A stretch of 64,000 nucleotides of DNA from an uncultured bacterium (GCA_902780525.1 CACZFL010000009.1:1-64000); one strand, 5' to 3'. Positions 1,317 through 31,512 are shown, counted from the first letter of the stretch. Numbers and translations are program-made. Notes: generated by a model not told the origin, from the sequence alone.

Positions 1317-1351
1317 TGAATTAGCATAAAAAAACGAGTTATCTTAAAAAA

Positions 1352-1376: not shown

Positions 1377-1399
1377 TTTCCAACAAGAAAGGATTACAA

Positions 1400-6966: not shown

Positions 6967-6990
6967 TTACTTTTTAAAAGGAGTTTAAAT

Positions 6991-7824: not shown

Positions 7825-8248
7825 TAAAGAAGTTGAACAAAAGCTGCAAGAACTTGCAAAAAAAAGTTCTAGCCTTAAACCCCTTATGAAAAATATTGCT
7901 GGGATCTTTGCTTCTGCTGCGGAAGACAACTTTGCAGAAGAGGGGAGACCTGATAAATGGATTGACTTATCTGAAGCTACAAAAAAACAAAGAAAAAGAA
8001 TAGGAAAATTTCCCGGTCAAATATTGCAAGTTACAGGTCAGCTTGCATCATCAGTTAATACATATTATGACGAAGATTCAGCAATAATCGGAAGTAATTT
8101 GGCTTATGCCGCAATACATCAATTGGGAGGACAAGCCGGTAAGAATGAAAAAGTAACAATACCAGCAAGACCATATTTAAAATTGACAACCAATAATATT
8201 AATGAATTATTGAAAATTCTTCAAAAACATCTATCCCTTTTGCTTTAA
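7790..8248 (+). CDS. Mu gpG-like phage virion morphogenesis protein
   Basis: The likely start is ATG 7790 (152 residues), inside the end of the adenine methylase gene. Features of the family are visible: RPDKWIDLSEATKKQRK, then GQILQVTGQLASSV, a SNLAYAAIHQLGG stretch and the near-terminal PARPYLKLT. In Mu, gpG is a late morphogenesis factor encoded just before gpI. Here gpI is not next: the gene ends 18 bp inside a convergent polysaccharide flippase gene, which marks the edge of the phage block. The protein end looks natural, though its last residues may come from the junction. Confidence 0.8.
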   Translation: MSDKPIEIKLDNKEVEQKLQELAKKSSSLKPLMKNIAGIFASAAEDNFAEEGRPDKWIDLSEATKKQRKRIGKFPGQILQVTGQLASSVNTYYDEDSAIIGSNLAYAAIHQLGGQAGKNEKVTIPARPYLKLTTNNINELLKILQKHLSLLL

Positions 8249-9445: not shown

Positions 9446-9451
9446 TTAGCT

Positions 9452-11676: not shown

Positions 11677-12226
11677 TATTAGCCTTTCCGATTTTAGATA
11701 TATCTAATGCATAAAAAGTGTTGTCCATATTTTCTTTGTAAATTATTCTACTAGGTTGGCTTACAACAATTGAATTATCAGGAACATCTTTAACAACAAC
11801 CGCATTTGCTCCTATTCTGCAATTATTACCAACTTCTACATTTCCGATAATTTTAGCACCTGCTCCTATAAATACATTATCTCCAATAATAGGGCAACCT
11901 TTATTTTTAGAATCTGTTAAATTATTTGAGCCAATTGTTACTTGATGAAAGATTACGCAATTCTTTCCGATTTTTGCTCCGTTTGATATAAATATTCCGT
12001 AAAATTTGTGTGGAAAAGTAGGAATGTTTTCAAAATAACTATGTTCACCAATCCAACAATTAAAATCATGCATTACTTTGTTATAACACGAAGCCCATAT
12101 TCCACCCGAACCGTTTTTTACCACTTCTTTGATTGCGAATAAATTGTCCGCATTAAAATTACTTCCTTTTCCTATTAAATATTTAAATAGAACAAACCAC
12201 TTACTATTTTTTTTAAACATGTTCAT
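11654..12226 (-). CDS. Serine-acetyltransferase-like hexapeptide acyltransferase
   Basis: Start set at ATG 12226 behind GGAGAGAGA; a TTG at 12244 is less likely. About 190 residues. The C-terminal half is a left-handed beta helix made of hexapeptide turns (IGKNCVIFHQVTIG, IGDNVFIGAGAKIIG, IGANAVVVKDVP), with the H of FHQVTIG as probable catalytic histidine. It resembles CysE and the sugar O-acetyltransferases of capsule clusters. Because it lies within the polysaccharide operon, overlapping genes on both sides, O-acetylation of the glycan is more likely than cysteine synthesis. Confidence 0.8.
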   Translation of the reverse strand: MNMFKKNSKWFVLFKYLIGKGSNFNADNLFAIKEVVKNGSGGIWASCYNKVMHDFNCWIGEHSYFENIPTFPHKFYGIFISNGAKIGKNCVIFHQVTIGSNNLTDSKNKGCPIIGDNVFIGAGAKIIGNVEVGNNCRIGANAVVVKDVPDNSIVVSQPSRIIYKENMDNTFYALDISKIGKANNETKKNI

Positions 12227-13166
12227 TCTCTCTCCACTTGGCAAACTTTCTTATTCCTTCTTTGAAGCTTGTTTTTGGTTTGTATCCCAAAAGATTTTTA
12301 GCTTTTGTAATATCGCTCACGGTTTTATTAACATCACCTAGCTGCAGGGGTAAATAATTCTTTTTTGCAGTTTTTCCCAAAACTTCTTCAATAGTTGAAA
12401 TCATTTCGTTCAACGTTACAGGAGAACCGCCACCCAGATTAATTATTTCATAAGGAGTTTTATCGTAATCTATTGCTGCACAAATCCCATTAATAATATC
12501 TTCTATAAATGTATAATCCCTCATTGTTGTACCATCACCATAAACAGGAATCGGTTTATCTTGTTCAATTAATTCTATAAATTTTCTTATTGCTAAATCA
12601 GGTCTTTGTTTCGGACCATAAACAGTAAAGAATCGCAAACAAACAGTATTGATTCCGTATAACTTGGAATAAGTATAAAGAATCTGTTCGCAAGCGGACT
12701 TTGTAGCCGCATAAGGAGAAATCGGTTCTGTCACTTTTAAATCTTCAGAGAATTTATCAGCTTTGCAATTACCGTAAACAGAACTTGAAGACGCAAAAAC
12801 GATTTTCTTAACATCATGCGCTTTCATCTTTTCTAAAATGTTTACGGTACCTTCAATGTTGCTTCTTACGTATTCAAGAGGGTTTTCTAAAGATGGACGC
12901 ACTCCCGCACGAGCTGCAATATGAACGACTTTATCAATATTATTTTCACTAAAAACCTTTTCCGTTAGTTCTCTGTCACAAATATCCCCGCGATAAAGTT
13001 TGTATTTTGGATTATTTAAATTTACCCCAACATTTTGTTCTTTGAGTTTTACATCATAATAATCATTGAAATTATCAAGAACAGTAATTTTATTTCCTTC
13101 GTTCAATAATTTATCCGCAAGAGTCGACCCTATAAATCCTGCTCCGCCTGTTATTAATATATTCAT
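12213..13166 (-). CDS. NAD-dependent epimerase, probably UDP-glucuronate 4-epimerase
   Basis: 317 residues of the extended SDR family. GGAGFIGS at 7-14 binds NAD, SSSSVYG lies near residue 125, and YAATK carries the catalytic Tyr and Lys. The N-terminal DNFNDYYDVKLKEQN loop is typical of UDP-glucuronate 4-epimerases. With Ugd in the same operon it would convert UDP-glucuronate to UDP-galacturonate. It overlaps the DUF616 gene by 4 bp (ATGA) and the acyltransferase by 14 bp. Substrate is inferred; other UDP-hexose epimerases share the motifs. Confidence 0.85.
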   Translation of the reverse strand: MNILITGGAGFIGSTLADKLLNEGNKITVLDNFNDYYDVKLKEQNVGVNLNNPKYKLYRGDICDRELTEKVFSENNIDKVVHIAARAGVRPSLENPLEYVRSNIEGTVNILEKMKAHDVKKIVFASSSSVYGNCKADKFSEDLKVTEPISPYAATKSACEQILYTYSKLYGINTVCLRFFTVYGPKQRPDLAIRKFIELIEQDKPIPVYGDGTTMRDYTFIEDIINGICAAIDYDKTPYEIINLGGGSPVTLNEMISTIEEVLGKTAKKNYLPLQLGDVNKTVSDITKAKNLLGYKPKTSFKEGIRKFAKWRENEHV

Positions 13167-14062
13167 AATAAATTTCCTTTCTTATCTTTTTTATGGCTTA
13201 TAACGAAAAAGTTTTTACAATCTAATCTTGAGTTTTTAAATGTAATCTTTTTTATATCAAAACCATATTTCCATAAAAGATAACTTAATGATAACTGGTC
13301 TCTTTTTGAATAATTCTGAACCATATACCACCATTCTTCATCAATTTTCTTTATAATATCAATATTATGGCGTCGATAAAGAATATTGTTCTCAGGGAAA
13401 CCCCAATTATGTGGCATTCCAGAGTTTATTATTAAATTTCTTTCCTTTTTTATGAGGTTTTCATCATCTAATCCTAATTTTAAAATATCATAGTATTCTT
13501 TATATATGCAATTGTTTTTGTAGTGTTTTGGCAAGACAAAACATGAATTTTTTTTCTTGATTATATTAAATAAATAAGGAGTTAAAATATTTATATTTGA
13601 ATCTATATAAATACTTTCTTCATATTCCGGAAACAAAATATGAGGATGTAGTTTATGCCATCTGTTGTTTCTGGTATTGTCAAGTGTCGTGAATTGTAAT
13701 GGTCTGATTTCCCAGATACCTACATGTCCTTTTGTTATATGGTCATTATTATCAGTAAAACAAATATAATCCCAATCCTTGTTTATATATTTTAAAGCAT
13801 CTATTTCTTCTATATCATCATAATCATTAATGACACAAGTATACATAACACTTTTTGCTTTTCTGCTTTTTTGATATTCTATATATTTTTGGATATTGGT
13901 TTCATCTTCAGAGCTTTTATACCAGTTAAAGGTATGTCTTTTAAATTTAATCTTAATTCCAGCGAATTCTATTATACGAATTCGGTTATTATCCGTACTA
14001 TATACCTTAAATAAAAAATTCATTGTATTCCAAAACATTTTATGTAATATCATTTTCCACAT
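13163..14062 (-). CDS. DUF616-type glycosyltransferase
   Basis: 299 residues. From residue 72 on, the family pattern is readable: SVMYTCVINDYDD, then DWDYICFTDN, then NRWHKLHPHILFPEYEESIYIDSNI with the DxD-like metal site, and NSGMPHNWGFPENNILYRRH. DUF616 proteins are glycosyltransferases (plant TOD1/MUCI70 relatives) common in bacterial polysaccharide loci. The N-terminus overlaps the Wzy gene by 23 bp. Donor and acceptor are unknown. Confidence 0.75.
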   Translation of the reverse strand: MWKMILHKMFWNTMNFLFKVYSTDNNRIRIIEFAGIKIKFKRHTFNWYKSSEDETNIQKYIEYQKSRKAKSVMYTCVINDYDDIEEIDALKYINKDWDYICFTDNNDHITKGHVGIWEIRPLQFTTLDNTRNNRWHKLHPHILFPEYEESIYIDSNINILTPYLFNIIKKKNSCFVLPKHYKNNCIYKEYYDILKLGLDDENLIKKERNLIINSGMPHNWGFPENNILYRRHNIDIIKKIDEEWWYMVQNYSKRDQLSLSYLLWKYGFDIKKITFKNSRLDCKNFFVISHKKDKKGNLL

Positions 14063-15482
14063 ATTTTTTCTCCATTTTGTATTTTTTGACTTGATTTTTG
14101 TATAAAAATATGAAAGAATTTAGAATTCCAAAGATAAACCACATCATGGGATAAATATCTATTGACCAATAAAAGGATATTATAATATAGTTTATTGCAA
14201 TTAAAATAGCTGTTTCTAACAATACTCGTTCTTGTTTTATAAAATAAAATTTTATTTTATTTGCTGTAATTAGGGACTTTATAAAGTATAAATATAATAA
14301 AAATGTGCCTATAAATCCTGTTTGAAGAAGGTAACTCCAAAATATATTAGGAGAAGCAAAACACATACCAGTCCACATACTTCTTAAAATTTCATATGTT
14401 AGTGGAGTGTTCGTGTTTGAATATTGTTTGTACATAGTTTCTTTCGTATTTCCATAGCCTACGCCAACAAGAGGATGTTTCTTAACAGCTTGAAATGTAT
14501 TAACTGTACTAATAATTCTTGTTGCCAAAGAAGGCTCAACAACAACTAAAGATTCCAAATCTCCAAAGCTACGTATTGTATGTTCTACTCTAACAATTAC
14601 AGGGTTATTGCTTATTGAACTTTCAGGATTTATGCTTAAAAAACCGATAGGCAGGAGAAAAAATAAAAGAATTAATATAAAGACATATTTCTTAAGAAAT
14701 TTTATGACATTCTTATAGAAAAAAATTGGAATATAAACAAAACTAAGTATTATATATATAGGAGATTTTGTTAAAAATAAAGCAATCCAGCTAATTACAA
14801 TTAAATAAATTTTAAAAAATTTATCTACAGTTAAATCATTTAAAATCTTTAAATTTGAGCGATACAACACATAACAAAAAGGGATGAATAAAAATATAAA
14901 GGTTGCAAAAAAGCTTGGTTCAAAAAATATTGAGCTGGCTCTTTCTAAAAGTTCACTACTCAGATTTACAGAATACCCTAATACATGTGAATAATAGTTT
15001 CTTGAACAAATAATACTGTATAGTGGGGCCTTTGTTCTAAATAAAATTCTACATAAAAAATCGAGAATCCCATAATAAATAATGAGTTGGTATGCATAAA
15101 TAAAAAAATGTAATAATTTTTTATATGAAAAATATTTTGGGAAAATGTATATAGCAAACAGAATCGCAGGAATGACAGTTAATCCATATATTAGAATAAT
15201 TCTTGAAATAATCATTGTTGTTACACCAATATTAAATAATACTACAGATGTGAAAAACATAAACAATATAAAAAAGACCAAATATTTAAAAGGAGTGTAT
15301 TTATATATATCTAAAAGCTTAATTAGAAAATATTTTGGTTTTACAAAAAATAAAACAAGCAACACTGTTACAATAAAGAAAGGTGCAATCAGCAACTGCT
15401 GTGTTCCAATAAGAAGAATACAGTCTTGTAAAAATATAAATATTAAAGTTAATAATATTAATATTTGAAAAATTCTCAACAT
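14040..15482 (-). CDS. wzy: O-antigen/capsule polymerase (Wzy-like)
   Basis: 480 residues, very hydrophobic, about 10-12 membrane segments, with one large periplasmic loop (about residues 300-380) holding EPSLATRIISTVNTF and HPLVGVGYGNTK, the arrangement of O-antigen ligase/polymerase (Wzy_C) proteins. It would join repeat units on the periplasmic side using lipid-linked substrates. As usual for Wzy, similarity is by topology rather than strict motifs, so ligase function (WaaL) is an alternative. It lies 12 bp downstream of the WbsX-like gene. Confidence 0.75.
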   Translation of the reverse strand: MLRIFQILILLTLIFIFLQDCILLIGTQQLLIAPFFIVTVLLVLFFVKPKYFLIKLLDIYKYTPFKYLVFFILFMFFTSVVLFNIGVTTMIISRIILIYGLTVIPAILFAIYIFPKYFSYKKLLHFFIYAYQLIIYYGILDFLCRILFRTKAPLYSIICSRNYYSHVLGYSVNLSSELLERASSIFFEPSFFATFIFLFIPFCYVLYRSNLKILNDLTVDKFFKIYLIVISWIALFLTKSPIYIILSFVYIPIFFYKNVIKFLKKYVFILILLFFLLPIGFLSINPESSISNNPVIVRVEHTIRSFGDLESLVVVEPSLATRIISTVNTFQAVKKHPLVGVGYGNTKETMYKQYSNTNTPLTYEILRSMWTGMCFASPNIFWSYLLQTGFIGTFLLYLYFIKSLITANKIKFYFIKQERVLLETAILIAINYIIISFYWSIDIYPMMWFIFGILNSFIFLYKNQVKKYKMEKKYVENDIT

Positions 15483-15494
15483 AAAATCTTGCTT

Positions 15495-16775
15495 TTATTC
15501 TACTTCTTCTAAAACCTCTTTAACAATCTGTAAGTTTGCGTATCCGTACTCCTGATCCGGCTCTAGGTGTGCTCCTTCTGCCCACTCGTTCCAAGCCATT
15601 ATAAATACAAATTGTTCTTCCTTGGAAAGATTCTTTTTTGTCCAATTTATTGCATCTTTCAACCATTTTTTAAAATCTAATGGAGTCATATTAAAAACCC
15701 AACATTTAGAGGCATACGCTTTACGTGCAGTATTATCCCAACAAGGGAAAACACATCTGAAAGTTTTATATGGATTGTTATATAAGTGATAACCTTCTTT
15801 TAAACCACGTTTTATGTCTACAATTTTCCCCTTAAAATTTGGATTTATATACACATTTTTCATGTCTGCTTGATATTTGGTAATTGGTAAATTTTCATGT
15901 AAAAAATCTACAATGCCATCAATTCCAAGCCCTTCAACATCTATTTCTGGATAACCAGCATTTGTCGTTAGAAAGGTTATACCATCAAAACCTTCTTCCA
16001 TTACTCTTCTTCGTAAATTTTTTAAGAATGCTTTGAACTTTTTGTTCTCAAAAATATGTGATAAAAATATGAGCAATAATGGTTTATTATTTACTTTAAT
16101 ATATCGTTCATCTTTAAACATTTTGATGGCGTCATCAGCAAATTTATCAAAATCTTCATCAAGTAATTCTTGTTTTCTTATAACTTCCTGCTTGCCATTC
16201 CCCCAAATACTTGTCCAAGTTTCATTTGTCCACATTATACAAAAGGGTATTTTTAAATTTTTATTCTCTAAAAAATTTTTTATTGGTTTTTCTAATAATA
16301 TTTCACCAGAAAACCAATAATAATAAAAACAAAATCCATATATGCCATATTTTTTTGCCAATTCTATTTGGCGATACATAATATCATCATGTGTTAAATC
16401 ATAAAAGCCGACATCTATCGGAAGTTGCGGTTGGTGGTGCCCTGTAAATTGTGGAATTGCATGAGCAACTTTGTACCATTCCATAAAACCTTTTCCAAAG
16501 TATTTATTATTAACATCATTTTCATGAAATTGTGGCAAATAAAATGCTAGTAGCTTGGTTTGTTCTTCTTTTAAATTTATTGAATCTTCACATATTGGAA
16601 CAAAATTATCAGAAACTTTTTGCTGATTTCTTGACATTAACCAATTAAGGTACTCCAATTTAAGATTTTCTGAATTATGAAAAAGATGATGTTTTATTCC
16701 TGTAAAAGAAAAAGAAATTTCTCGTAGTAAATTTCTACAAAATTTATAAGTTTTAGATAAAAATATAGGTATCAT
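15495..16775 (-). CDS. WbsX-like glycosyltransferase (GH99-like fold)
   Basis: 426 residues. After an N-terminal region of about 75 residues the WbsX pattern begins: LLAFYLPQFHENDVNN, GKGFMEWYKV, GHHQPQLPIDVGFYDL, YGIYGFCFYYYWFSG and MWTNETWTSIWG, and near the C-terminus FIMAWNEWAEGAHLEPD. WbsX proteins occur in O-antigen and rhamnan clusters and share the GH99-like barrel; they are thought to be transferases, though an endo-acting role is possible. The gene lies 2 bp after the preceding glycosyltransferase. Confidence 0.85.
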   Translation of the reverse strand: MIPIFLSKTYKFCRNLLREISFSFTGIKHHLFHNSENLKLEYLNWLMSRNQQKVSDNFVPICEDSINLKEEQTKLLAFYLPQFHENDVNNKYFGKGFMEWYKVAHAIPQFTGHHQPQLPIDVGFYDLTHDDIMYRQIELAKKYGIYGFCFYYYWFSGEILLEKPIKNFLENKNLKIPFCIMWTNETWTSIWGNGKQEVIRKQELLDEDFDKFADDAIKMFKDERYIKVNNKPLLLIFLSHIFENKKFKAFLKNLRRRVMEEGFDGITFLTTNAGYPEIDVEGLGIDGIVDFLHENLPITKYQADMKNVYINPNFKGKIVDIKRGLKEGYHLYNNPYKTFRCVFPCWDNTARKAYASKCWVFNMTPLDFKKWLKDAINWTKKNLSKEEQFVFIMAWNEWAEGAHLEPDQEYGYANLQIVKEVLEEVE

Positions 16776-16777
16776 TT

Positions 16778-17947
16778 CTAACTCCTCAATATATCTTTAT
16801 AAATTGCGACTATATCGTTTGCTATATTATTCCAAGAATAGTGTGCTAATCTTTCTTTCTGTTTTGATAGCATATATTCTTTCTGAGTATTATCAGAAAG
16901 AACTTTATATATTACTTCTGCTGCATTATTTTCATCATCAGGGTTAAAATAGGCACAACCTTCTCCGCCAACTTCTGGAAGTGATGCAGCTTGTGAACAA
17001 GCAATTGGAATATTGTACATCATAGCCTCTATTATTGGTGTACCAAATCCCTCATATTTTGTAGCTGTAGCATAGATATCCGCATTTTTAAACAATGCTG
17101 CTAAGTCTTCATTAGAAGTATATCCAAGATATTTAATATCTTTTTTATAGGGACTGTTATTAATTTCTTCTAAAAAATCATTTTTTTCTAAACCATGCAT
17201 TTCAAGCCCCATTCCTCCACAAATGACCAATTGATGTGGAATTTTAAATTTTCTTTTTAACAAATTAAATGTTCTTATTAAAAATGGGTAATTTTTATGT
17301 GGTCTTATTATTGAAACACTTAAGATATATGGTCTAATTATTTGTTTACCTTCTAATACATGTTCATTACTTGTTGTTCTATCTTTTCTAGGATCAGGTG
17401 CCATGCCAGTTGTAACCAATAAACTATCATCAATATTTCTATAATATTTATGAATTTCTGAACGGGTAAAATCTGAAACAAGAATTATTTTTTTTGTGTG
17501 TGAAAGTGTGTATTTTACGTTACGTTTTAAGTAATTATAATATTTTGTCATTACTTTTGTGTGTGGTAAATTTTCATAAAAATAAAATCCTGATAAATCG
17601 TGCAACGTGGTAACAGATTTTGTCGGACAAAATCTAGGCATATATTGTATCATGTGATGTACTAAATTGATCCTTTGGCAGATTATTCCAAGCGCCATTA
17701 GTGTGTGTTCAGTTATTACCCTTATCGTTGAATTATTTGTATTTATAGGATAAACGATTATTTTTAGATTCTTATACTTTTTTAAAGAGTCAAAGACATC
17801 TGCTGTACTTTTGCCTGCAAAAATATAATATTGATTTTCAGTATCAATATCTAGAATAGATTTTATTACGCCATATATATAAGCTTCAATACCGCCTGAA
17901 TTTTTTTTCATTCCTAATGCATTGAATGCGATTCTATATTTCTTCAT
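16778..17947 (-). CDS. GT4-family glycosyltransferase
   Basis: 389 residues with the GT-B fold. The C-terminal donor-binding domain shows ILSVSIIRPHKNYPFLIRTF, then YLGYTSNEDLAALFKNADIYATATKYEGFGTPIIEAM, where E-x7-E of EGFGTPIIE is the GT4 signature. The opening RIAFNALGMKKNSGGIEAYI places the acceptor domain at the N-terminus. It overlaps the next upstream transferase by 14 bp. It should add one sugar of the repeat unit on the cytoplasmic face; the sugar is unknown. Confidence 0.9.
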   Translation of the reverse strand: MKKYRIAFNALGMKKNSGGIEAYIYGVIKSILDIDTENQYYIFAGKSTADVFDSLKKYKNLKIIVYPINTNNSTIRVITEHTLMALGIICQRINLVHHMIQYMPRFCPTKSVTTLHDLSGFYFYENLPHTKVMTKYYNYLKRNVKYTLSHTKKIILVSDFTRSEIHKYYRNIDDSLLVTTGMAPDPRKDRTTSNEHVLEGKQIIRPYILSVSIIRPHKNYPFLIRTFNLLKRKFKIPHQLVICGGMGLEMHGLEKNDFLEEINNSPYKKDIKYLGYTSNEDLAALFKNADIYATATKYEGFGTPIIEAMMYNIPIACSQAASLPEVGGEGCAYFNPDDENNAAEVIYKVLSDNTQKEYMLSKQKERLAHYSWNNIANDIVAIYKDILRS

Positions 17948-19046
17948 AAAGCTCCTTATATTGTTTTCTTACTTTCTCTATACCAAATGAGTTTATGACT
18001 CTTTTTCTTGCATTTCTGCCGTATTCAAAACGAAGTTCATCATTATTAATAAGCTCTTTTATTGCATTAGTTAATTGTTCGACATTTTTAGGTTCAACAG
18101 TTAAACCTGTTTCTTTATCTAATGAAACATAATTTACACCATTTTGTAGCCAAGTATTTATAACAGGTTTAGAATGACGCATCGCTTCTATTTGCACAAT
18201 CCCAAATGCTTCAACACGTGTTATTGATGGCATCAAATAAATATCACTCGCTTCATAATAATTATTTAACTCTTCATCTTTTAGTCGACCAAGCAAAATA
18301 ACTTTTTTCTGTAAGTTATTGTCTTCTACATATTGTCTATAACTTTCTGTTAAAGGTCCAGAACCGGCTAATATATAAACCGCATTCTCAACTTTTTTCA
18401 TTGCTTCAAGAGCATAAATAAATCCTTTATATTTAACATGCCTTCCAAGAGAAAATAAAATCTTTTTATCCTTATATTTACCTTTTATTTCATTTACTTT
18501 CTCCTGATTAACTTCATAATCTAAAGAAATTCCTTGAGGAACAACAATACATTTATTTGCAAATTCTTCCAGTATTTGCGAGTTGTGTATTATGTTTGGT
18601 GAAAGTACATGAATCTTATCTGCTTTTCTCAAAAATATTCTATATAACCACCATAAATATTTCATATATTTATCAAATCCGATAATATCGCTATGATAAG
18701 AAACATAGAGTTTTTTATACTTTGGTCTTGCAATAAAAAATGCAATCATTCCAAATATAAATGGCATATGCATGTGTAAAATATCTGTTTTTACTCGTGA
18801 TAGGTTCCAAATCAATTGCGGAGAAATATTATTTGAAGCAAACTCAAACAAATACTTTGCTCTTGTATATTTAACTCCATTTTCAACTGATGATTTATCT
18901 GTATTAGAGCAACACAAAACTTCTTTTTCAAATTCTTCGTTTGGTAAACAACTGTTAATCTGATTCATCACAGTTTCAATACCGCCAATATGAGGATAAG
19001 CATATCTAAAAACATGTGTAACTTTTATTTTTTTTCTATCTTGCAT
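17934..19046 (-). CDS. GT4-family glycosyltransferase
   Basis: 370 residues, GT-B fold. N-terminal KVTHVFRYAYPHIGGIETVM holds the glycine-rich acceptor-side loop; SLGRHVKYKGFIYALEAMKKV and the ASDIYLMPSITRVEAFGIVQIEAM segment with EAFGIVQIE form the donor site. It is a typical cytoplasmic retaining transferase of capsule and O-antigen clusters. Start has no strong ribosome site visible but lies 6 bp after the acyltransferase stop, so coupling is likely. Specificity unknown. Confidence 0.9.
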   Translation of the reverse strand: MQDRKKIKVTHVFRYAYPHIGGIETVMNQINSCLPNEEFEKEVLCCSNTDKSSVENGVKYTRAKYLFEFASNNISPQLIWNLSRVKTDILHMHMPFIFGMIAFFIARPKYKKLYVSYHSDIIGFDKYMKYLWWLYRIFLRKADKIHVLSPNIIHNSQILEEFANKCIVVPQGISLDYEVNQEKVNEIKGKYKDKKILFSLGRHVKYKGFIYALEAMKKVENAVYILAGSGPLTESYRQYVEDNNLQKKVILLGRLKDEELNNYYEASDIYLMPSITRVEAFGIVQIEAMRHSKPVINTWLQNGVNYVSLDKETGLTVEPKNVEQLTNAIKELINNDELRFEYGRNARKRVINSFGIEKVRKQYKELYEEI

Positions 19047-19052
19047 TTTTTC

Positions 19053-20039
19053 CTACAATCCTATAAATACTTTTAGCCTCGGGAGGTATCTTGAAATTGA
19101 ATTGGATAACACAATTGATAAGGCAATTCCCCCAAAAAGCATAGCGATTACAGCGGTTAAATAGTTAATCAAGTTTAATTGATAAAACACTCTTAAACCC
19201 GTCTGACCAAACCAACTTAGTAAATATATTTGATAATACTTACCGTCTAATATTCCGAATAAAAATTTTTGTTTGTTTGAATCACAAATAAGTGCAACAC
19301 CAAAAGAAATAATAATCCCCAATATTGCAATTAAAATTTTTATGATTAGATAATTTTTTAAATAAAAATTTAAAACTAAAAATAATATTAATGAACAAAA
19401 TATCAAATAAATATTTGAAAAAACTCTAAATAATGTTTGTCTATATATATAAACACAGCTACCAAAAATAAAATAAAAAATATTGTATAAAACAGTTTTA
19501 AAAAAATGTATAGGTATGTATTTGACAAAAAACAATATTATAAAAGAAATTGTAAATAATTTTAGAATATTTATTCTTTTTATGAAAAATGCAATTACAA
19601 AAATTACAAAAATTACAGGCAAAAACCACAAATATTTATCAGGATTATTTTCTGGTGCAAACATTGATGATAAATAAAAAGATAATGATGGTTGACTTGG
19701 CCTATATGCAAAACTATTAAAAATAAATGTTTTTAATAGATATGCTATTGTTCCAATAGAAAAATATGGAATAATTAATTTTTTTAATTTCTTTTGTATA
19801 AAATCTTTAAATTCTATATTATAGTTCTTTGATTCCATTGAATATATGAACAAAAAACCTGCAATTGCAAAAAATAAGGGCATGTGAAAAGAATAAAGAA
19901 TATTATGAATAATCCCAAAAACTAATGGAAATTCACCAGTTGCATTATCAAGAGGCAAAGAATGCCCAATACAGACTAAAAACACCGCAAATGATTGTAA
20001 AAAAGTTATATATGGTATTTTTTTAGTTTTCATCCCCAT
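19053..20039 (-). CDS. Acyltransferase 3 family membrane protein
   Basis: 328 residues with about ten membrane helices. The opening PYITFLQSFAVFLVCIGHSLP carries the catalytic histidine motif of the family, followed by SFHMPLFFAIAGFLF. Members O-acylate sugars (for example OafA-type O-antigen acetylases). The start overlaps the stop of the sugar transferase gene (TAATG), so both are co-translated. With the hexapeptide acyltransferase at 11654, the glycan likely carries acyl decorations. Confidence 0.85.
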   Translation of the reverse strand: MGMKTKKIPYITFLQSFAVFLVCIGHSLPLDNATGEFPLVFGIIHNILYSFHMPLFFAIAGFLFIYSMESKNYNIEFKDFIQKKLKKLIIPYFSIGTIAYLLKTFIFNSFAYRPSQPSLSFYLSSMFAPENNPDKYLWFLPVIFVIFVIAFFIKRINILKLFTISFIILFFVKYIPIHFFKTVLYNIFYFIFGSCVYIYRQTLFRVFSNIYLIFCSLILFLVLNFYLKNYLIIKILIAILGIIISFGVALICDSNKQKFLFGILDGKYYQIYLLSWFGQTGLRVFYQLNLINYLTAVIAMLFGGIALSIVLSNSISRYLPRLKVFIGL

Positions 20040-21388
20040 TACTTATGTCTACCTCCCAAAGCAAGAAACACCGCCTTAACCAAAATAAAAATTTCCCACA
20101 AAATATTTCTGTGTTTTATATAGTACAAGTCATATTCCAAACGTTCACGCTCTTCGTCAACAGTAAAAACAGGGTCCATATTAATATGTGACCATCCTGT
20201 CCAACCTGTTTTTACCCACATTCTTCCCGAATAATAAGGAATATTTTTCTTAAAAATTTCAGCCTCTTCTTTCCATTCTGCCCTCGGACCAACAATTGAC
20301 ATTTCACCTTTTAGAATATTTATCATTTGCGGGATTTCATCAAAACGGGCTTTTCTAACAAATCTACAAAACGGAATAATTCGGTCATCACCTTTTATTG
20401 ATTCAGCATACTTTACATCTTCGCCATCTTTTGGCACATAGTCATTAACATACATCGTACGGAGTTTGTAACATTCAAATGTTTTACCGTTTTTACCAAC
20501 TCTGGTTTGAGTAAAGAACGGACTTGCTCCATCTGTCAGCTTCACCCTTATTGCTATATATCCGGTAATAGGGAGTGTTACAGTCAGAATAATTATTGCT
20601 GCAATAATGTCATAAACACGTTTGCAAAAATCATAAATAACAGAACGATGAGTTGCGTACTGATAAAACAACTCCGTAATAGTTTTTTCGTCAACATAAT
20701 ATTTGCCGGTAATCATTTCATAAAATTCCGGCATTTTGTATATTTTTATTCCGACAGGAATGGTTAATATTAATTCAGTCGGTTGAGCTATAACAACAAC
20801 GTTAATGTTATTTTGCTTAATTAGGGTTCTTAAATTTTCAGGTTCTGTAAAAATAGGTACTTTTGAATCATTTATTACTTCTTCCGAGAACTGTCCCTGA
20901 ACAAATCCTGCGATTTTCATTTTTAGCGCTGCTTTGTTTTGGATTTCTTCTGCAATAATTCTTGCTCTCTCATCGGTTCCGAGAATTAAAATATTTTTTT
21001 CTTTTTTTATATTAAACAAATAAAAATGGAAAATATCACGATATGTCTTTAAAAGTAAAAATATAGTTACTGTGTTTACTGCTAAAAATTTTAAAGCAGA
21101 TGTAAAAGATGCTGCAAAAATCATTAAATACACCGCCGGAGGAACGTGAGTCATAACAATACCTTCAAAAAGAAGATATGAGGCTTTAAGATTTATGTTA
21201 AACTCACGAATTTTATAATTGCCTTTAAGAAAAAGAACAATAAGTCCTATTGTAATAACCATAAAACACAATAAAGCTACTGCCTTGTGCGAATAATTAA
21301 AAAATTTTGACCATAAAAATGTAGACAGAAACAGTATAATAAAATCAAAACAAAACATAATAAATGTAGATTTTGATAGGCTTTTCAT
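20039..21388 (-). CDS. Initiating sugar-phosphate transferase (WbaP/WcaJ-like)
   Basis: 449 residues. Four N-terminal membrane helices (about 8-115), a central Rossmann-like region (NILILGTDERARIIAEEI near 130), then a fifth hydrophobic segment (YDIIAAIIILTVTLPITGYI) and the catalytic bacterial sugar transferase domain: FTQTRVGKNGKTFECYKLRTM, RKARFDEIPQMINILKGEMSIVGPR. It loads the first sugar phosphate onto undecaprenyl phosphate and so starts the repeat unit. Good AAGGAG site before the ATG. It should be first gene of the leftward operon here, since the Mu-like early block separates it from its usual partner, the Wzz gene at 27117. A truncated paralogue lies at 31612. Confidence 0.93.
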   Translation of the reverse strand: MKSLSKSTFIMFCFDFIILFLSTFLWSKFFNYSHKAVALLCFMVITIGLIVLFLKGNYKIREFNINLKASYLLFEGIVMTHVPPAVYLMIFAASFTSALKFLAVNTVTIFLLLKTYRDIFHFYLFNIKKEKNILILGTDERARIIAEEIQNKAALKMKIAGFVQGQFSEEVINDSKVPIFTEPENLRTLIKQNNINVVVIAQPTELILTIPVGIKIYKMPEFYEMITGKYYVDEKTITELFYQYATHRSVIYDFCKRVYDIIAAIIILTVTLPITGYIAIRVKLTDGASPFFTQTRVGKNGKTFECYKLRTMYVNDYVPKDGEDVKYAESIKGDDRIIPFCRFVRKARFDEIPQMINILKGEMSIVGPRAEWKEEAEIFKKNIPYYSGRMWVKTGWTGWSHINMDPVFTVDEERERLEYDLYYIKHRNILWEIFILVKAVFLALGGRHK

Positions 21389-21501
21389 TTCGACTCCTTC
21401 TTATAATCTACCTATACCATGAACAATGTTATAATTCTACTCGGATGTTAACAATGTTAAGTTTGAAATGCTTTCCACTAGAGTTTGTCCATCATTTTAG
21501 T

Positions 21502-21789
21502 TTATGTAATATTCAACCTTGAACTTGCAATTTTATAAATATCATTTTCAGAAAAATTACAAATTCTACACAAGTATAGACGAGAACTTTTTGAACCATC
21601 ATAATGTCTTTTTACATATTCTCTTCTAGCTCTTAATGTTGCATTCTTTGGAACTGTATATGTAGAACCTTGATAATTACACATCAAATAAATTATTGGT
21701 GAAAGACCAACTATTGATGCAAGAAATTTTAAATCTTCATTAGGTAATGTTTCCATAGTGATAAGCTCAGTCCATGGTGGATTTGACAT
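21502..21789 (-). CDS. Mor/C-type phage transcription activator
   Basis: 95 residues. LPNEDLKFLASIVGLSPIIYL (residues 15-35), then NYQGSTYTVPK, and a C-terminal helix-turn-helix with ARREYVKRHYDG and FSENDIYKI. This is the layout of Mor/C activators of Mu, which bind dyads upstream of middle or late promoters lacking a -35 box. It is the last gene of the early block, where Mu keeps mor after gemA. It has its own putative promoter with two dyads upstream (21834-21880). A GGAGAGA ribosome site precedes the ATG. Confidence 0.75.
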   Translation of the reverse strand: MSNPPWTELITMETLPNEDLKFLASIVGLSPIIYLMCNYQGSTYTVPKNATLRARREYVKRHYDGSKSSRLYLCRICNFSENDIYKIASSRLNIT

Positions 21790-21808
21790 AGGAATCTCTC
21801 CTTGATTT

Positions 21809-21880
21809 TGGGGTAATATATGGTCATCATCAGTTAACGCATCACGTTAAGACAGTCGGCTTGCACCGATAGCCGACTGT
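21809..21880 (-). promoter_or_regulatory. Upstream control region of the Mor-like gene
   Basis: On the minus strand a TATATT -10-like box (complement of 21815-21820) continues into ATTACCCCA, the string shared with the capsid-protease promoter. Upstream lie a short dyad TTAACG-N5-CGTTAA (21834-21850) near the -35 position and a longer perfect dyad ACAGTCGGCT/AGCCGACTGT (21852-21880). The long dyad lacks a T-run on either strand, so an operator is more likely than a terminator. Confidence 0.45.
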
Positions 21881-21890
21881 TTCGACCTGT

Positions 21891-22154
21891 TTATAACTTT
21901 GCTGAAGCAAGCATTGGAGCTTGTGGTCCGAACATTTCTGATATTCTATTAATCATCTTGTTCATCAATTTGACTTTAGCTTCGCAGATATTGCATTTAT
22001 CTTGTTGTTCAAAGTATTCTGCATAATCTTCTTGAGATTTATTCTTATTTCTAGAAGCTTTTCCTAAATCTTTTAAAGCATCTTCAAATTCAACCTGCAA
22101 CACCTCCAATTGATTGTTCATCATGTTCATAATTGTGTCTTGAGTCATTTCCAT
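21891..22154 (-). CDS. Small helical phage protein with CxxC, unknown
   Basis: 87 residues, methionine- and charge-rich, predicted all helical, with a single CNIC motif at about residues 54-57 that might bind metal only as a dimer. It starts behind GAAAGGAAAA and follows gemA by 44 bp in the early operon. I do not recognise the family. In Mu the segment between gemA and mor holds short genes of poorly known function, so this is a position-based guess at an accessory early gene. Confidence 0.5.
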   Translation of the reverse strand: MEMTQDTIMNMMNNQLEVLQVEFEDALKDLGKASRNKNKSQEDYAEYFEQQDKCNICEAKVKLMNKMINRISEMFGPQAPMLASAKL

Positions 22155-22198
22155 AACTGTTTTTCCTTTCTTTTTCTTATCTACCTCTTAAAAGCCAT

Positions 22199-22615
22199 TT
22201 AAACAGCTTTTAATATCTTTTTTTCCATAATTCCTATAATCTTTCCGGCACGTTCTTTGGTTAAGAACCTAATGTCGTTAATATGAAAGTGCAAGGATAA
22301 ATATCTTCTTAGTGATTTGTAACGATGTTTTTTTGCTTTATTTTTACAAATAGATTTCCAAACAACTTCCATTTTTCTTAACTGCAAAGGTGTTGCCATA
22401 TCTTCATCTCGCCCAATAAAACCATCGTATTTTTTTAAGTTGAGTATCCTAACCTTTGCATCAAGAATACTTATTAAAATATCTGCCTCTGCTTCAGTTA
22501 GTGTTTTTGAGCTTACTGAGTCGAAACTGTGCAGGAGTTTTCTATACACTTCATCACTCATGCAAAGCAAACTTTTTAATGTATGTATTTTTCTAATTTG
22601 TTGTAATGTACTCAT
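22199..22615 (-). CDS. GemA-like protein (Mu gp16, DUF1018)
   Basis: Start set at ATG 22615 behind GGCAGGAA, giving 138 residues. The DUF1018 pattern is visible: QQIRKIHTLKSLLCMSDEVYRKLLHSF near the start, SVSSKTLTEAEADILI, MATPLQLRKMEVVWK, and a KERAGKIIGIMEKKI end. GemA modulates host gene expression and DNA topology in Mu. It lies between the B-like gene and the mor-like gene, as in Mu. The start lies inside a small membrane-protein gene (23-bp overlap). Confidence 0.82.
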   Translation of the reverse strand: MSTLQQIRKIHTLKSLLCMSDEVYRKLLHSFDSVSSKTLTEAEADILISILDAKVRILNLKKYDGFIGRDEDMATPLQLRKMEVVWKSICKNKAKKHRYKSLRRYLSLHFHINDIRFLTKERAGKIIGIMEKKILKAV

Positions 22616-22739
22616 AGTATTCCTGCCTTTGTAATTCTCTTCCATGAGCAATTCCTATCTGTACTCCTGTAATAAATATTGCAAGAGCAATGAGGAATAT
22701 GTAAAAGATTTTGTTTGGTAATTCGGTGATTTCTTCCAT
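22593..22739 (-). CDS. 48-residue single-TM protein between muB and gemA
   Basis: A short reading frame with AAAGGGAAA before its ATG (22739) encodes a polar N-terminus (MEEITELPNK), one hydrophobic helix of about 18 residues (FYIFLIALAIFITGVQIGIA), and a charged tail. It begins 11 bp after the MuB-like gene and overlaps the gemA start by 23 bp, tight spacing typical of a real operon member. No homologue is known to me. It could be a membrane-active early protein (superinfection exclusion or lysis control), which is speculation. Confidence 0.55.
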   Translation of the reverse strand: MEEITELPNKIFYIFLIALAIFITGVQIGIAHGRELQRQEYYEYITTN

Positions 22740-22749
22740 TATTTTCCCT

Positions 22750-23628
22750 TTAAAAGATTAACTGTCTCATACTTGCTTGTATTACATCTTCATCCATATC
22801 TCTGTCATTTAGTTGTGCAATACGGTGTGCTCTGACCAAAAGCTTGGTCAGAACTCTCGTATTGCCGCCACAATAGACGGAGATTTTGGGGTAAATGCTA
22901 TCAACCTCAGGAGTCACTGTTGATATAATGGCTTTAATATCTTCTTCAGATAAAGATTCTAATAAAGAAGTAATACCTACTCTTGAATAAAGCTGTGCAT
23001 ATTGTCCTTTTTCGCCTTTTAAATTATTAAAAAGTTTTGGCATTCCTACAAGCAATATTCCAACATTAGCTTTATCATATATTCTGCGAAGTAGTTCTAA
23101 TGCTTTATATGGCAAATTTTCAGCTTCATCAACGATAATTAATCTGCCCGATGATTTTAATTTTTGCACAATGTCTAAAAGCATTGTATGAATTGTTCCG
23201 CAGCCATCAAAACCTAAGTTTTTGTGTATTTCAGAAAACAATACTTTTGGGGTATAACCAAAATCTGCTTCTATCAATATGACTTCAGGATTTTCTTCTG
23301 CATATTGTCTGACTGCAACAGTTTTTCCAAGTCCTGCCGGTCCACAACATACCCCGATAGTATTTTCTATACTGCAAGTTTTTGCAATATCAAACACATC
23401 AACAACAACAGATGTATTAATAAATCCAACTTCTATTCTGCGATCACGTAGTTCTTCCAGTTCTAAAAATTTTTTTACAGCTTCGTCAATTTTTTCTACA
23501 TTTCCGGTATATTTATTGTTTAACCACAAATTTAATCTTGAAATTGATACATTTGTCGATTTTTTAACGTGTGATAAAGAATAACCCTTTTCATTCATTC
23601 GTTGTCTTAATTTTGCTACTAAAGTCAT
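22750..23628 (-). CDS. MuB-like transposition ATPase
   Basis: 292 residues. An N-terminal helix-turn-helix (about 1-55, with GYSLSHVKKSTNVSISRLNLWL) precedes the AAA+ core: Walker A GPAGLGKT at 96-103, Walker B LIIVDEAE at 163-170 and a GMPKLF sensor-1 region. MuB coats target DNA in its ATP form and delivers it to the transposase, giving target immunity. It starts 10 bp after the MuA-like gene. All ATPase residues are present, so it should be functional. Confidence 0.9.
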   Translation of the reverse strand: MTLVAKLRQRMNEKGYSLSHVKKSTNVSISRLNLWLNNKYTGNVEKIDEAVKKFLELEELRDRRIEVGFINTSVVVDVFDIAKTCSIENTIGVCCGPAGLGKTVAVRQYAEENPEVILIEADFGYTPKVLFSEIHKNLGFDGCGTIHTMLLDIVQKLKSSGRLIIVDEAENLPYKALELLRRIYDKANVGILLVGMPKLFNNLKGEKGQYAQLYSRVGITSLLESLSEEDIKAIISTVTPEVDSIYPKISVYCGGNTRVLTKLLVRAHRIAQLNDRDMDEDVIQASMRQLIF

Positions 23629-23638
23629 AATTCCCCCT

Positions 23639-25591
23639 CTATATTGCCTGTTGTTTTAATAATTTTTCTTGTTTTGCTAATTCTCTATTCCTTTCTGCTT
23701 CGGTAAGGTATAGCTTTTTCTTTGGCAATAATTTTGTAACGTATTTTTCAGGCTTAATATTCATCTTTTTGTCTTCTTGTATTACCTGATCCATTTTTGT
23801 ATTAGAAAGCTGAATGACTGTCGGATTACTTTCATAATCCTGATTTAACGTTAATTTTGTACGTTCAATATGTTCTGTGACTCCTGCAACATTTTTAACA
23901 GTAGCAATATACGATTTAAGAACTTTTTGTTCTTTTCGTTTCTTAGTAATTGCATTTTTTAGCTGCGATTTTTCAATGTTGGTTTTTGCGAGGAACGATG
24001 TCTCGTAGAATATATTTGCTTTACCCAAATATTGCTCTGTTTCAGCATCAAAAACCCAAGCTTCTTGGTAAGCATTAATATCTCTGCGAATAAATACTCT
24101 CCGACCTTTTTCTGTAACCATCCAATCTGCCCAATATGTGACATTTAAGGTAGAGTCATTTACTCCGTTTCTTCCGATTTTTACAGGTTTCGAAGTCCGC
24201 ATACAAAACAGTTTTAATGCATCTTTAGAAATAACCTTTTTAACTGCAAATTCTTCAGCCCAAGCTTCATCCGGACACCTTCCATTAAGATTTTTGCCGC
24301 TAGATGGTGTTTTATTTAAAACTGTCTCTATAAAGTCATCAAACATTAATTTAAATTCAGAAAACTCCATAATCTGATTTGTTTTAATCTCTTTTTTTAG
24401 CTTTTCTGGTCTTTCCGTTATTTTTCCACCACGATACCCAACAAACCCCTTGGAAAGAAATTCCTTAATTTTAAGAAAATCTCTTTCCACAGGTTTTGTC
24501 TGGGCATTGTAAGGCAAGGCAAAATGAACAGATACACCAAGATTCGTAATTAATGAATTTTCTTTATCTGTTAAGTTGTTAACTCTAACAGAACTTCTAC
24601 CTCCTGCAAAATCTTTGCATCTATAATCTTTTCCGTTATCAAGATATATGTCATTTGGAATGCCAAATCTTGTAACTCCATAATAAAACGCTTGAAATAT
24701 ATGGTCAGAGTTTGGAGCTTCAGCATGCAAGAACCATCCTAACCATTTTGATGTTTTAGCATCTCTGAATACAGTAACCCATGGGAAACAGATATTATCA
24801 TTTACCTTTACAGCAATATCTATCTGTGCGTGGTCAGAAACCCAGCAACTACCTGCAACAATATTTGTATAATCTCTTGGAATGTACATTGCATATTTTT
24901 TATTCCAAGCCGCTTTACCATTACGAGCCAAATAAATTGCTTGTTCCGGTAGTTCTTTTTTTATATATCTATCAAATGTTTTATAAGATGGGAAATTAAC
25001 CGGATTTATATTATCTGTTTCAATTGCATATCCTAGGGTTGCTCTCCAACAAGAATTTGCAGAAGGTCCGCCTTCTTTTAAATAAAGAGATTTGTAGTAA
25101 TCTAAATATTCTTGCTTAATAACATATCCTGAATCATAGTGTCCTTTTTTCGATAGTAGTCCTGCAAGACCAAATTGTTCATATTTCTGTCTTGCTTTAT
25201 ATAGTGAGTTGTAACAAAGTTTCTTGTTAGGATTTTTATTATTCCATACTTCCAAAAAATTTAAAGTCTCTTTATATGTCATATTTTTTGTTAATGAAAA
25301 TATTTCCATATATTTATCAGCTTGTTTTCTTGCCCATTCAGGAGCAGAAGCATATTCTTCATTCTCATCAGAATGATTTGAAACTGGAATTTTGCTTTTC
25401 ATTATTTGCAAATATTTTTCTTGGTATTCTTCAGGTAATGAAGACAAAAGAATATAGTAATTTTTAAATTTACCTTGTTTTGTAAATTTAGAAATATACT
25501 CTTCTCTCTTACATTTACGTCTAACAGTCTCTCTTTTTTCTCCAGATAAACTGCAAACTTCATCTATTGTTAACCAAGCATCTGTTTGCAT
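23639..25591 (-). CDS. MuA-like DDE transposase
   Basis: About 650 residues from ATG 25591; an in-frame TTG two codons earlier overlaps the Ner-like stop. An N-terminal winged-helix end-binding domain (AWLTIDEVCSLSGEKRETVRRK, read in parts over 5-26) is followed by a second HTH region and the RNase H-like core with the catalytic triad D253 (VSDHAQ), D318 (LDNGKD) and E369 (VERDF). The C-terminal part has the Mu-type beta barrel and a basic tail that contacts MuB. It catalyses strand transfer for phage integration and replication. It looks intact and the active site is complete, so the module may be mobile. Confidence 0.93.
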   Translation of the reverse strand: MQTDAWLTIDEVCSLSGEKRETVRRKCKREEYISKFTKQGKFKNYYILLSSLPEEYQEKYLQIMKSKIPVSNHSDENEEYASAPEWARKQADKYMEIFSLTKNMTYKETLNFLEVWNNKNPNKKLCYNSLYKARQKYEQFGLAGLLSKKGHYDSGYVIKQEYLDYYKSLYLKEGGPSANSCWRATLGYAIETDNINPVNFPSYKTFDRYIKKELPEQAIYLARNGKAAWNKKYAMYIPRDYTNIVAGSCWVSDHAQIDIAVKVNDNICFPWVTVFRDAKTSKWLGWFLHAEAPNSDHIFQAFYYGVTRFGIPNDIYLDNGKDYRCKDFAGGRSSVRVNNLTDKENSLITNLGVSVHFALPYNAQTKPVERDFLKIKEFLSKGFVGYRGGKITERPEKLKKEIKTNQIMEFSEFKLMFDDFIETVLNKTPSSGKNLNGRCPDEAWAEEFAVKKVISKDALKLFCMRTSKPVKIGRNGVNDSTLNVTYWADWMVTEKGRRVFIRRDINAYQEAWVFDAETEQYLGKANIFYETSFLAKTNIEKSQLKNAITKKRKEQKVLKSYIATVKNVAGVTEHIERTKLTLNQDYESNPTVIQLSNTKMDQVIQEDKKMNIKPEKYVTKLLPKKKLYLTEAERNRELAKQEKLLKQQAI

Positions 25592-25593
25592 TA

Positions 25594-25776
25594 TCAAGCA
25601 ACCTCATTATCCATATTTGCCAAACCTTCAATGAATTTATCGAAACGTTTGCTTTTTCTTTCACCTGAAATAAGCATACTTACATAGCTTTCGCTATAAT
25701 GTAGCATTTCTGCTACTTGTCTTTGTGTAATTCCATTTTTAATCAGTGTCATTTTGTGTAAAAATTTCTTGCTCAT
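25594..25776 (-). CDS. Ner/Cro-like small HTH regulator
   Basis: 60 residues with one helix-turn-helix (GITQRQVAEMLHYSESYVSML, residues about 15-35). It is the first gene of the leftward early operon, just upstream of the transposase, divergent from the repressor: the position of Ner in Mu, which damps early and repressor transcription. Its stop overlaps the first codons of the transposase frame. Sequence alone shows an XRE-like fold; the Ner role is inferred from position. Confidence 0.75.
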   Translation of the reverse strand: MSKKFLHKMTLIKNGITQRQVAEMLHYSESYVSMLISGERKSKRFDKFIEGLANMDNEVA

Positions 25777-26029
25777 CTACTCCTCTTTGTGTTAGTTGCA
25801 TGTCGTATATTTCATATATTAAAAAAGTCAACACATTTCGTCAATGCTTTTTGAAAAATTGTGAAGCAATTTACAACATACACATATAAACAAATATTGC
25901 TGGTATAGTTTGTATTATTTATTTTGTATACGATTTATAATGATTAAGAAATGTAACACAATATATCTAAACATCTTGAAAATATGTGTTGATTGTGAAA
26001 TACTTTACATGAAAAAAGAGGAGTTATTT
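25777..26029. promoter_or_regulatory. Divergent ner/repressor control region
   Basis: A 250-bp AT-rich gap separates the leftward early operon from the rightward repressor. It should hold the early and repressor promoters and the operators. Short related elements are seen, for example GTCGTATAT near 25803 and GTATACGAT near 25926, in inverse orientation. Boxes cannot be assigned with confidence in such AT-rich DNA. Confidence 0.4.
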
Positions 26030-26731
26030 ATGTCAAATTTACCAAGCAGATTAAAACAAATTCGTACAGAATTAGGTTTGTCATTGGAGCAAATTGCTGA
26101 AGAGTTAATATCAAAAGGTGTAAAAATCACAAGCAGGACAATATATGCTTATGAATCAACAGAAAGACCACCCGCTCTCCCATATTTACAAGCATTAATT
26201 GATTATTATGAGGTAAATCCGGAATGGCTATTATCAAATCGTGGGGAAATGTTTTATAGTGAAGTAAGTAAGAAATCTGTACCTGCAAATATTGATATAT
26301 CAAATATGATTTATATTCCGTTACTTGATATGACTACATCAGCAGGACATGGTTCATTAATTAATGATGATCGCATATTAACAAAAGAATTCATTTCATT
26401 TACAAAAACATGGCTATCAAAACTTAAATTAACAAGTGAAAAATATTTACTTGGTTTTACTGTTAAAGGCGATTCAATGCAAGGAGATATTAATGATGGC
26501 GATATTATTATTGTAAACACGCAATATACAAATCTGTCCACAGATGGCACTTTTGCTGTAAATATTGATGATCAGATGTATGTAAAAATTCTACAACGAA
26601 TGCCAGGGAATAAAGTACAAGTAATAAGTAAAAATACAAAATATGCGCCTTTTATTGTCGATTTAAGCACTGATCACTTTAAAATTATTGGTAAAGTTAT
26701 ATGGTCTGGTGGCGAAAAGGATGTTTGTTAA
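26030..26731 (+). CDS. LexA/CI-like phage repressor (XRE HTH plus S24 peptidase)
   Basis: Start set at ATG 26030 behind AGAGGAG (233 residues); a longer frame upstream lacks a ribosome site. Residues 5-70 form an XRE-type helix-turn-helix (GLSLEQIAEELISKGVKI). The C-terminal S24 domain has nucleophile S149 in VKGDSMQG and general base K186 in QMYVKIL; the likely self-cleavage A-G pair is at 105-106. Such repressors hold the lysogenic state and are inactivated by RecA-assisted self-cleavage after DNA damage. It is divergent from the Ner-like gene, as the Mu c repressor is. All catalytic residues are present. Confidence 0.9.
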   Translation: MSNLPSRLKQIRTELGLSLEQIAEELISKGVKITSRTIYAYESTERPPALPYLQALIDYYEVNPEWLLSNRGEMFYSEVSKKSVPANIDISNMIYIPLLDMTTSAGHGSLINDDRILTKEFISFTKTWLSKLKLTSEKYLLGFTVKGDSMQGDINDGDIIIVNTQYTNLSTDGTFAVNIDDQMYVKILQRMPGNKVQVISKNTKYAPFIVDLSTDHFKIIGKVIWSGGEKDVC

Positions 26732-26774
26732 AACCAATTTATTTTATGATACAATGTTAGTTGAAAGGCACAAA

Positions 26775-27071
26775 ATGGAAGAAGATAATACAATAAACTC
26801 TAAAAGAATTATATATTTAAAACGCAAACCAAAACAATATGCACAGTTATTATTTAATCTCTTTATGGTTGCTACAGTATCATTTTTGTTTATGCAAAAT
26901 ATTCACATAAAAAAAGAATTACAAGTTTGCAAAGCAAATGAATTTAGACTGTTTAATGAAGTAAATAAATTAGAAAATGATGTCTATGGCTTAAAAGAAA
27001 GTGTTGTCGGGTTAGAAAAAATCAAATTAGATAAAAATATAAAAACTGGCAAACAACAAAATAAGAAATAA
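26775..27071 (+). CDS. Small membrane-anchored coiled-coil protein, unknown
   Basis: Start set at ATG 26775 because GAAAGG lies 6 bp before it; 98 residues. A basic N-terminus is followed by one membrane helix (YAQLLFNLFMVATVSFLFMQ) and a coiled-coil segment (KANEFRLFNEVNKLENDVYGL) ending in a lysine-rich tail. It follows the repressor by 43 bp and is the outermost gene of the Mu-like early block, the usual slot for genes expressed from the prophage, such as superinfection exclusion. No family recognised. Confidence 0.5.
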   Translation: MEEDNTINSKRIIYLKRKPKQYAQLLFNLFMVATVSFLFMQNIHIKKELQVCKANEFRLFNEVNKLENDVYGLKESVVGLEKIKLDKNIKTGKQQNKK

Positions 27072-27074
27072 AAT

Positions 27075-27109
27075 GAAACGGATAAAATTAATCCGCTTCT
27101 TTCTTTTTA
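27075..27109 (+). terminator. Terminator after the repressor operon
   Basis: GAAACGGAT and ATCCGCTTC pair across a 7-nt loop with one mismatch and are followed by TTTCTTTTT. It closes the rightward transcript and separates it from the convergent Wzz gene. It also lies close to the expected edge of the mobile module. Confidence 0.65.
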
Positions 27110-27116
27110 ACTATAG

Positions 27117-31388: not shown

Positions 31389-31512
31389 TCTCCTCCAACC
31401 ATTATTAGAATATTATAGCACATTTACGCAATTTTAATATCTTTTAACATAAAGACATAATAAGACACATAAATTAATATAAAAATTATCAGTCAGTTTT
31501 GAAATAATTATC

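Follow-up and report, generated by a model that had tools for sequence, protein, structure and literature searches.

The window analysed here, a 64,000-nucleotide stretch from an uncultured bacterium (GCA_902780525.1, CACZFL010000009.1:1-64000), is contig C9 of a 2.09-Mb metagenome-assembled genome (MAG) of 35 contigs, which we call G000. It carries a compact block of Mu-like genes between a wzz gene and an initiating sugar transferase gene. We consider it likely that this block is the early region of a single Mu-like, contractile-tail transposable prophage of rumen Gastranaerophilales, which carries polysaccharide genes as cargo in a variable interval, the cargo bay, between its early and late regions.

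Early and late genes of the prophage

The block at 21440-27112 is real, as a preliminary description of this DNA had proposed, with eight early genes present and all of them open. They include a DDE transposase with Mu-type domains, a MuB ATPase and the early regulators repressor, Ner, GemA and Mor (Table 1). The claim that the catalytic residues of MuA are complete also stands: the acidic DDE candidates D255/D260, D320 and E371 are invariant among relatives. The ratio of nonsynonymous to synonymous divergence (dN/dS) between G000 and a more distant genome, G025, is 0.05 for muA and 0.10 for muB, with dS saturated or near-saturated, and the early genes thus appear to be intact and under purifying selection.

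The statement that the module lacks virion genes proved wrong for the window. Genes for a Mu I-like protease, a terminase, a Mu portal and the F and G proteins lie at 1-8248 on the same contig, and the terminase of a related prophage, G015, used as a query, matched the window at 2298-3629. The linkage of Mu-type virion genes to the early genes is found on C9, with the tail part on other contigs, and is contiguous in relatives. The capsid gene is cut at the end of C9, and capsid residues 209-310 lie at the start of contig C29, which is filled by the rest of the capsid gene and by sheath, tube, tape measure and baseplate genes; contig C5 begins with the last tail-end genes, which adjoin hddA. 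From this gene order we infer that C9, C29 and C5 are joined in one prophage, which would start near 27,116, run leftwards past position 1 and across C29, and end at about C5:3339. Its repressor-side end probably lies between an accessory gene for a protein with one transmembrane (TM) segment and the wzz stop at 27117; variable genes after the repressor are also present in relatives. G000 has one MuA of the family with a cargo bay, one terminase and one tape-measure gene. The portal gene is broken by a short internal deletion near its 5' end, which shifts the frame relative to the homologue in a phage of another species (G057), and because of this the G000 copy is probably defective.

The order of genes on C9 is that of a family of phages in genomes with GTDB titles of Candidatus Gastranaerophilales or Melainabacteria, from rumen and gut samples. 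A single MuA sequence gave no matches in viral and genome contigs; an alignment query recovered the relatives, among them four IMG/VR contigs and several MAG contigs with MuA 56-64% and terminase about 83-85% identical. Late region, bay and early region are contiguous and in identical order in three of the IMG/VR contigs (3300028571_002339, 3300004241_000313 and 3300020048_006177) and in a Gastranaerophilales MAG contig (CALVEB010000003.1). In these, tail and capsid genes read in one direction and the holin, terminase, portal, methyltransferase, F, dam and G genes in the opposite one; the variable bay follows, then mor, gemA, muB, muA and ner, and then the repressor. The G000 prophage would accordingly run from the repressor end through ner, muA, muB, gemA, p87, a hammerhead ribozyme and mor to the bay, and from there through G, F, portal, terminase and holin, all read towards mor, to protease, capsid and tails, read outward. 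A distant phage with its repressor beside G (G064) was dropped as a standard for this map, as it differs from the closer relatives.

The tail genes of G000 and G057 share 98-99% protein identity with a dS of 0.08-0.17, which points to recent movement, whereas portal, terminase and G differ at a dS of 0.4-1.0. This contrast appears to reflect a mosaic, recently exchanged genome, as in live phages.

Table 1. Positions in the window of the prophage features, with the basis for each assignment.
Feature	Position	Strand	Basis
Major capsid gene, first 75 codons, cut at contig end	1..225	-	98-100% identical to G057 phage; Pfam Phage_cap_E on G057 homologue
Mu I-like prohead protease	226..1200	-	Pfam Mu-like_Pro 3.1e-9
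Holin-like small membrane protein	1400..1648	+	Open reading frame (ORF) kept in all relatives; putative function
Small terminase-like helix-turn-helix (HTH) protein	1883..2308	+	Position and conservation
Large terminase	2298..3635	+	Pfam Terminase_6N 7.9e-16, Terminase_6C
Mu portal protein, broken gene	3860..5107	+	Pfam Portal_Mu 4.2e-99; comparison with G057
DNA cytosine methyltransferase	5100..6221	+	ORF kept in phage relatives
Mu F-like head protein	6181..6966	+	Pfam Phage_Mu_F 1.9e-29
Dam-like DNA adenine methyltransferase	6991..7824	+	ORF kept in phage relatives
Mu G-like virion morphogenesis protein	7763..8248	+	Pfam Phage_tail_S 1.1e-29; last codons overlap wzx stop
Cargo bay	8231..21388	-	Pfam; position between G and mor as in relatives
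Mor-like transcription activator (mor)	21502..21789	-	PHROG 836 late transcriptional activator 6.7e-8
Type II hammerhead ribozyme, mor leader, between p87 and mor	21822..21887	-	Exact catalytic core, covarying stems
p87, small acidic protein	21891..22154	-	69% conserved in G025; position kept elsewhere
GemA (gemA)	22199..22651	-	Pfam GemA 3.7e-11
48-residue single-TM protein	22593..22739	-	Open frame; kept in relatives
MuB-like AAA ATPase (muB)	22750..23628	-	PHROG 296 DNA transposition 3.1e-77
MuA-like DDE transposase (muA)	23639..25597	-	PHROG 310 transposase 1.2e-91; Pfam DDE_2, Mu-transpos_C
Ner-like HTH	25594..25776	-	PHROG 1468 1.9e-9
S24-type repressor	25910..26731	+	Pfam Peptidase_S24 1.6e-20
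Accessory one-TM protein, second membrane protein, open frame	26688..27071	+	Terminator-like hairpin follows

The cargo bay and competing explanations

The interval from G to mor measures 13,253 bp in G000 and 10,755, 11,512, 11,163, 15,471 and 11,376 bp in relatives. By its Pfam matches the G000 bay is occupied by a complete polysaccharide cluster of the Wzx/Wzy type, including its initiating sugar transferase, along with a UDP-sugar dehydrogenase, a TupA-like protein, a hexapeptide transferase, an epimerase, glycosyltransferases, WbsX and an acyltransferase-like protein beside the Wzx flippase and Wzy. The bay of G074 has genes for GT2 and GT8 glycosyltransferases, an aldo/keto reductase, a radical SAM protein and a nucleotidyltransferase, and that of the viral contig G065 has an MsbA-like transporter, an SIS/CBS isomerase, a nucleotidyltransferase and a radical SAM protein. 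Restriction or defence genes (type IIG, DrmD/type III-like and type I) fill the bays of G066, G067 and G072, and in G017 HsdM/S follow mor on one contig while HsdS and an integrase lie beside G on another. It seems that the 13.25-kb polysaccharide cluster of G000 moved with the phage as cargo, and the phage would have entered by MuA/MuB transposition. Elsewhere in the family, in G046, a wzz gene stands between the holin-like and protease genes (L148 2753-4114).

This arrangement recasts two points of the preliminary description. One of its two readings of the block was the early half of a split prophage, and the late part does lie 13 kb away, with the qualification that the intervening DNA is the cargo bay usual in this phage family, here occupied by polysaccharide genes. 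Polysaccharide genes do flank the block on both sides as sequence; those on the transferase side sit in the place of the phage's own bay, as judged from contiguous relatives.

Several observations weigh against a single prophage with cargo. The ends of C9, C29 and C5 share no overlap, and a strict search for TG..CA ends with a 4-6 bp duplication at both ends of G000 and G074 found none; terminal inverted repeats and a 5-bp target duplication, which had been proposed as marks of the insertion, were likewise searched for and not found. The G stop lies inside wzx, which leaves a tight edge between the late region and the bay. At 28.9% GC the bay is nearer to the adjoining wzz segment (27.1%) than to the phage arms (34.8 and 31.2%), and its sugar genes look host-like by this measure. 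In other species wzz and the transferase are neighbours, so that the early block occupies the very point at which it would break up a host operon, a placement that would fit both in situ capture and phage delivery.

It is possible, though in our judgement unlikely, that a host polysaccharide locus lies between two degraded insertions which are separate and form no unit, an early remnant between wzz and the transferase and a late remnant beside wzx. The adjacency of wzz and transferase without the block in G008 and G015, the tight gene-to-gene edges at G/wzx and rep/wzz, the broken portal gene, and the occurrence of early-only (G025, G058) and late-only (G057, G050) genomes would all suit such a history. 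Against it stand the single early and single late set in each genome, whose order, orientation and spacing match those in contiguous relatives with the bay at the same place, and G016, which has the same early/late pairing. Early-only blocks, for which the preliminary description had proposed a search in other genomes, do occur in G058 (between HU and an ABC transporter) and in G025 (beside a fragment of the transferase gene). As these two cases come from fragmentary MAGs or short contigs, a minimal element keeps a small probability there.

The same description had also raised a satellite-like mini-Mu moving without structural genes, and this is unsupported in G000, with its one early set, one terminase and one tape measure, and arms spaced as in contiguous relatives. 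That an element of ~5.6 kb transposes alone with a helper phage is very improbable. The intact early genes under purifying selection are what it would predict, and no terminase was found in the 83%-complete G058 genome, where the block lies between HU and the transporter; however, the element in G000 has virion genes of its own where they would be expected in the window, a search around the block found neither ends nor a target duplication, and the closest complete relatives are full phages. We give as little credence to a chimeric assembly that set phage genes beside polysaccharide genes. The fragmented MAG and the contig ends inside phage genes would be in keeping with such an error, but independent assemblies from other samples have G or mor beside glycan genes (G065, G074, G016 and G050).

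Where the block is absent, wzz and the transferase are 84 bp apart in G008, 132 bp in G015 and, as the preliminary description had stated, 87 bp in copy 2 of the window. Its use of copy 2 as an empty-site control is borne out in that the two genes can adjoin, while this adjacency is no proof of a simple 5.6-kb insertion. In the related species G016 (MetG 93% identical) the same layout is present in decayed form, with a dam/G pseudogene, capsule genes, the transferase, a 700-bp gap and wzz, and the gap contains a mor pseudogene, a muB fragment and an inverted repeat of ~130 bp like that of a miniature inverted-repeat transposable element (L054 2848-3540). In G025, mor is followed by an N-terminal fragment of the transferase. 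By MetG identity to G000, G015 is close (95%) yet empty, and G025 is more distant (88%) yet has a related block; therefore the locus does not follow the species tree. It has moved horizontally, either by phage or by capsule-locus recombination. We also considered a single inversion that would restore an uninterrupted phage, and abandoned the idea because the adjacency of wzz and transferase elsewhere contradicts it.

Further along the window, three genes lie between the first wzz and the transferase fragment (28585-31388); on inspection by eye the second looks like a PIN protein and the third like a DUF2971 protein, both of defence type. A repeat-rich end like that of a mobile element closes the transferase fragment (31500-31623, with GACA..GAAATTAAAA repeats), and similar ends occur at about the same transferase codon in G016 (L120) and G025 (L046 3620-3740). 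We rejected 31,500-31,623 as a prophage end, since the motif is found at no phage ends. The repressor- or muA2-side ends of three phages adjoin the 3' end of an HU gene (L039 6314-6709; L032 8023-8439; L048 about 11625-11936). Two MAG contigs, L046 and L104, start at a break in the same MuA codon (281), which suggests shared near-identical DNA there.

A predicted hammerhead ribozyme in the mor leader

Conservation is 85-93% between p87 and mor, as against 65-75% in coding DNA. This interval has stems I, II and III together with a CUGANGA / GAAA / NUH core, arranged in the type II permutation. The order of elements (stem II 3' strand, GAAA, stem III, NUH, stem I, CUGAUGA, stem II 5' strand) is exactly that of a type II hammerhead, with cleavage predicted between 21851 and 21850. 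A rule-based scan found the motif in most elements with a p87-mor region, and a second scan gave 51 distinct sequences; the same rules found no hammerheads in a 2-Mb Markov control. Across 24 distinct copies, 11 of the 16 pairs in stems I and III show double changes and 99.5% of cells are paired, a value as high being reached in none of 500 shuffles, and stem II varies in step (GGUC/GACC, AGUC/GACU, GAUC/GAUC). An Rfam scan at the gathering threshold gave no hammerhead match, Hammerhead_II reaching 19.4 against 37 bits in the relative L039. A possible pseudoknot joining loop I to the 3' tail, examined by eye only, proved inconsistent across copies and was set aside. In 16 scanned loci, full phages included, two hammerhead copies flank a small ORF before mor; in full phages this ORF lies between gemA and mor (L031 19185-19250 and 19546-19610; L042, L047, L048, L106 and L107).

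Type II hammerheads have been reported in bacteria, some flanking genes in prophages, with a proposed role in the processing of polycistronic phage RNA (Perreault et al. 2011, PMC3088659). The motif found here shares with them the permuted fold, the core, and single or tandem copies that flank phage genes, and differs in its four-base-pair stem II, an extra U after CUGAUGA in some copies, scores below the Rfam Hammerhead_II cut-off, and its constant placement ahead of mor in a Mu-like phage. By sequence and predicted fold it would be a new type II hammerhead member in a new, fixed place. No Mu-like phage with hammerheads, or with polysaccharide cargo, was found in the literature searched, which covered few subscription journals.

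In a working phage of this family, the S24 repressor would keep the early operon off; upon derepression MuA and MuB would transpose the element, the ribozyme would cleave the early RNA ahead of mor, and Mor would then switch on later genes. In the lysogen the cargo would alter the surface of the cell, while in relatives it would provide defence. A concrete, testable role for prophage hammerheads is suggested by the covarying one in front of mor, namely early-transcript processing at a developmental switch. More tentatively, as a proposition we hold at slightly less than even chance, gut Gastranaerophilales may harbour transposable phages with exchangeable 10-15 kb modules in a fixed mor-G bay, either whole polysaccharide clusters (initiating transferase, polymerase and flippase) or defence islands. 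Complete coat-switching loci would thereby be moved between species, and the hammerhead would separate the mor message from the early operon. If so, coat switching and phage exclusion would reside in one exchangeable cassette of an uncultured gut lineage, on whose phages almost nothing was found in the literature searched. Phage-borne surface change is usually credited to one to three modifying genes.

Known phages and related modules

The G000 prophage resembles phage Mu and the Mu-like phages Bacillus phage BalMu-1 and Pseudomonas B3 in its MuA, MuB, Ner, GemA, Mor and repressor, and in its Mu portal, F, G, I-like protease and sheath; its terminase is B3-like (39.7%). It differs from Mu in that the packaging operon of its family is inverted, a large bay separates mor from G and a ribozyme precedes mor, and its MuA is at most 28% identical to those of isolated phages. 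Like serotype-converting phages (gtr operons, phage O-acetyltransferases; PMC6586298), it bears genes for altering surface glycans, in its case a whole Wzx/Wzy-type cluster of about 12 genes with a predicted surface effect, in contrast to their one to three. With phage satellites (P4-like elements and phage-inducible chromosomal islands, PICI) it shares compact regulators and mobility genes; unlike them it has late genes, and no helper-hijacking genes were seen.

In a phylogeny of MuA all elements of the bay type are split from a second lineage, muA2, by a fully supported branch. One related phage group has two transposase pairs per phage, the second MuA/MuB pair standing with a winged-helix gene directly upstream of ner-muA (L032 3959-7354; L042 5957-9328; L048 8151-11498). 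In four genomes another wzz has, at its 3' end, a muA2-muB2 module that ends in a TerS-like gene (L116 14609-17926; L164 2319-5644; L166 5855-9142; L033 14305-15242). At five further loci a MuA paralogue (44-50%), with no muB found alongside, is followed only by a TerS-like HTH gene (L043 10632-13257; L036 6553-8876; L034 6090-8251; L040 752-3069; L113 2549-4872), and the L043 copy has host genes on both sides. These loci may come closer to a true compact Mu-like module.

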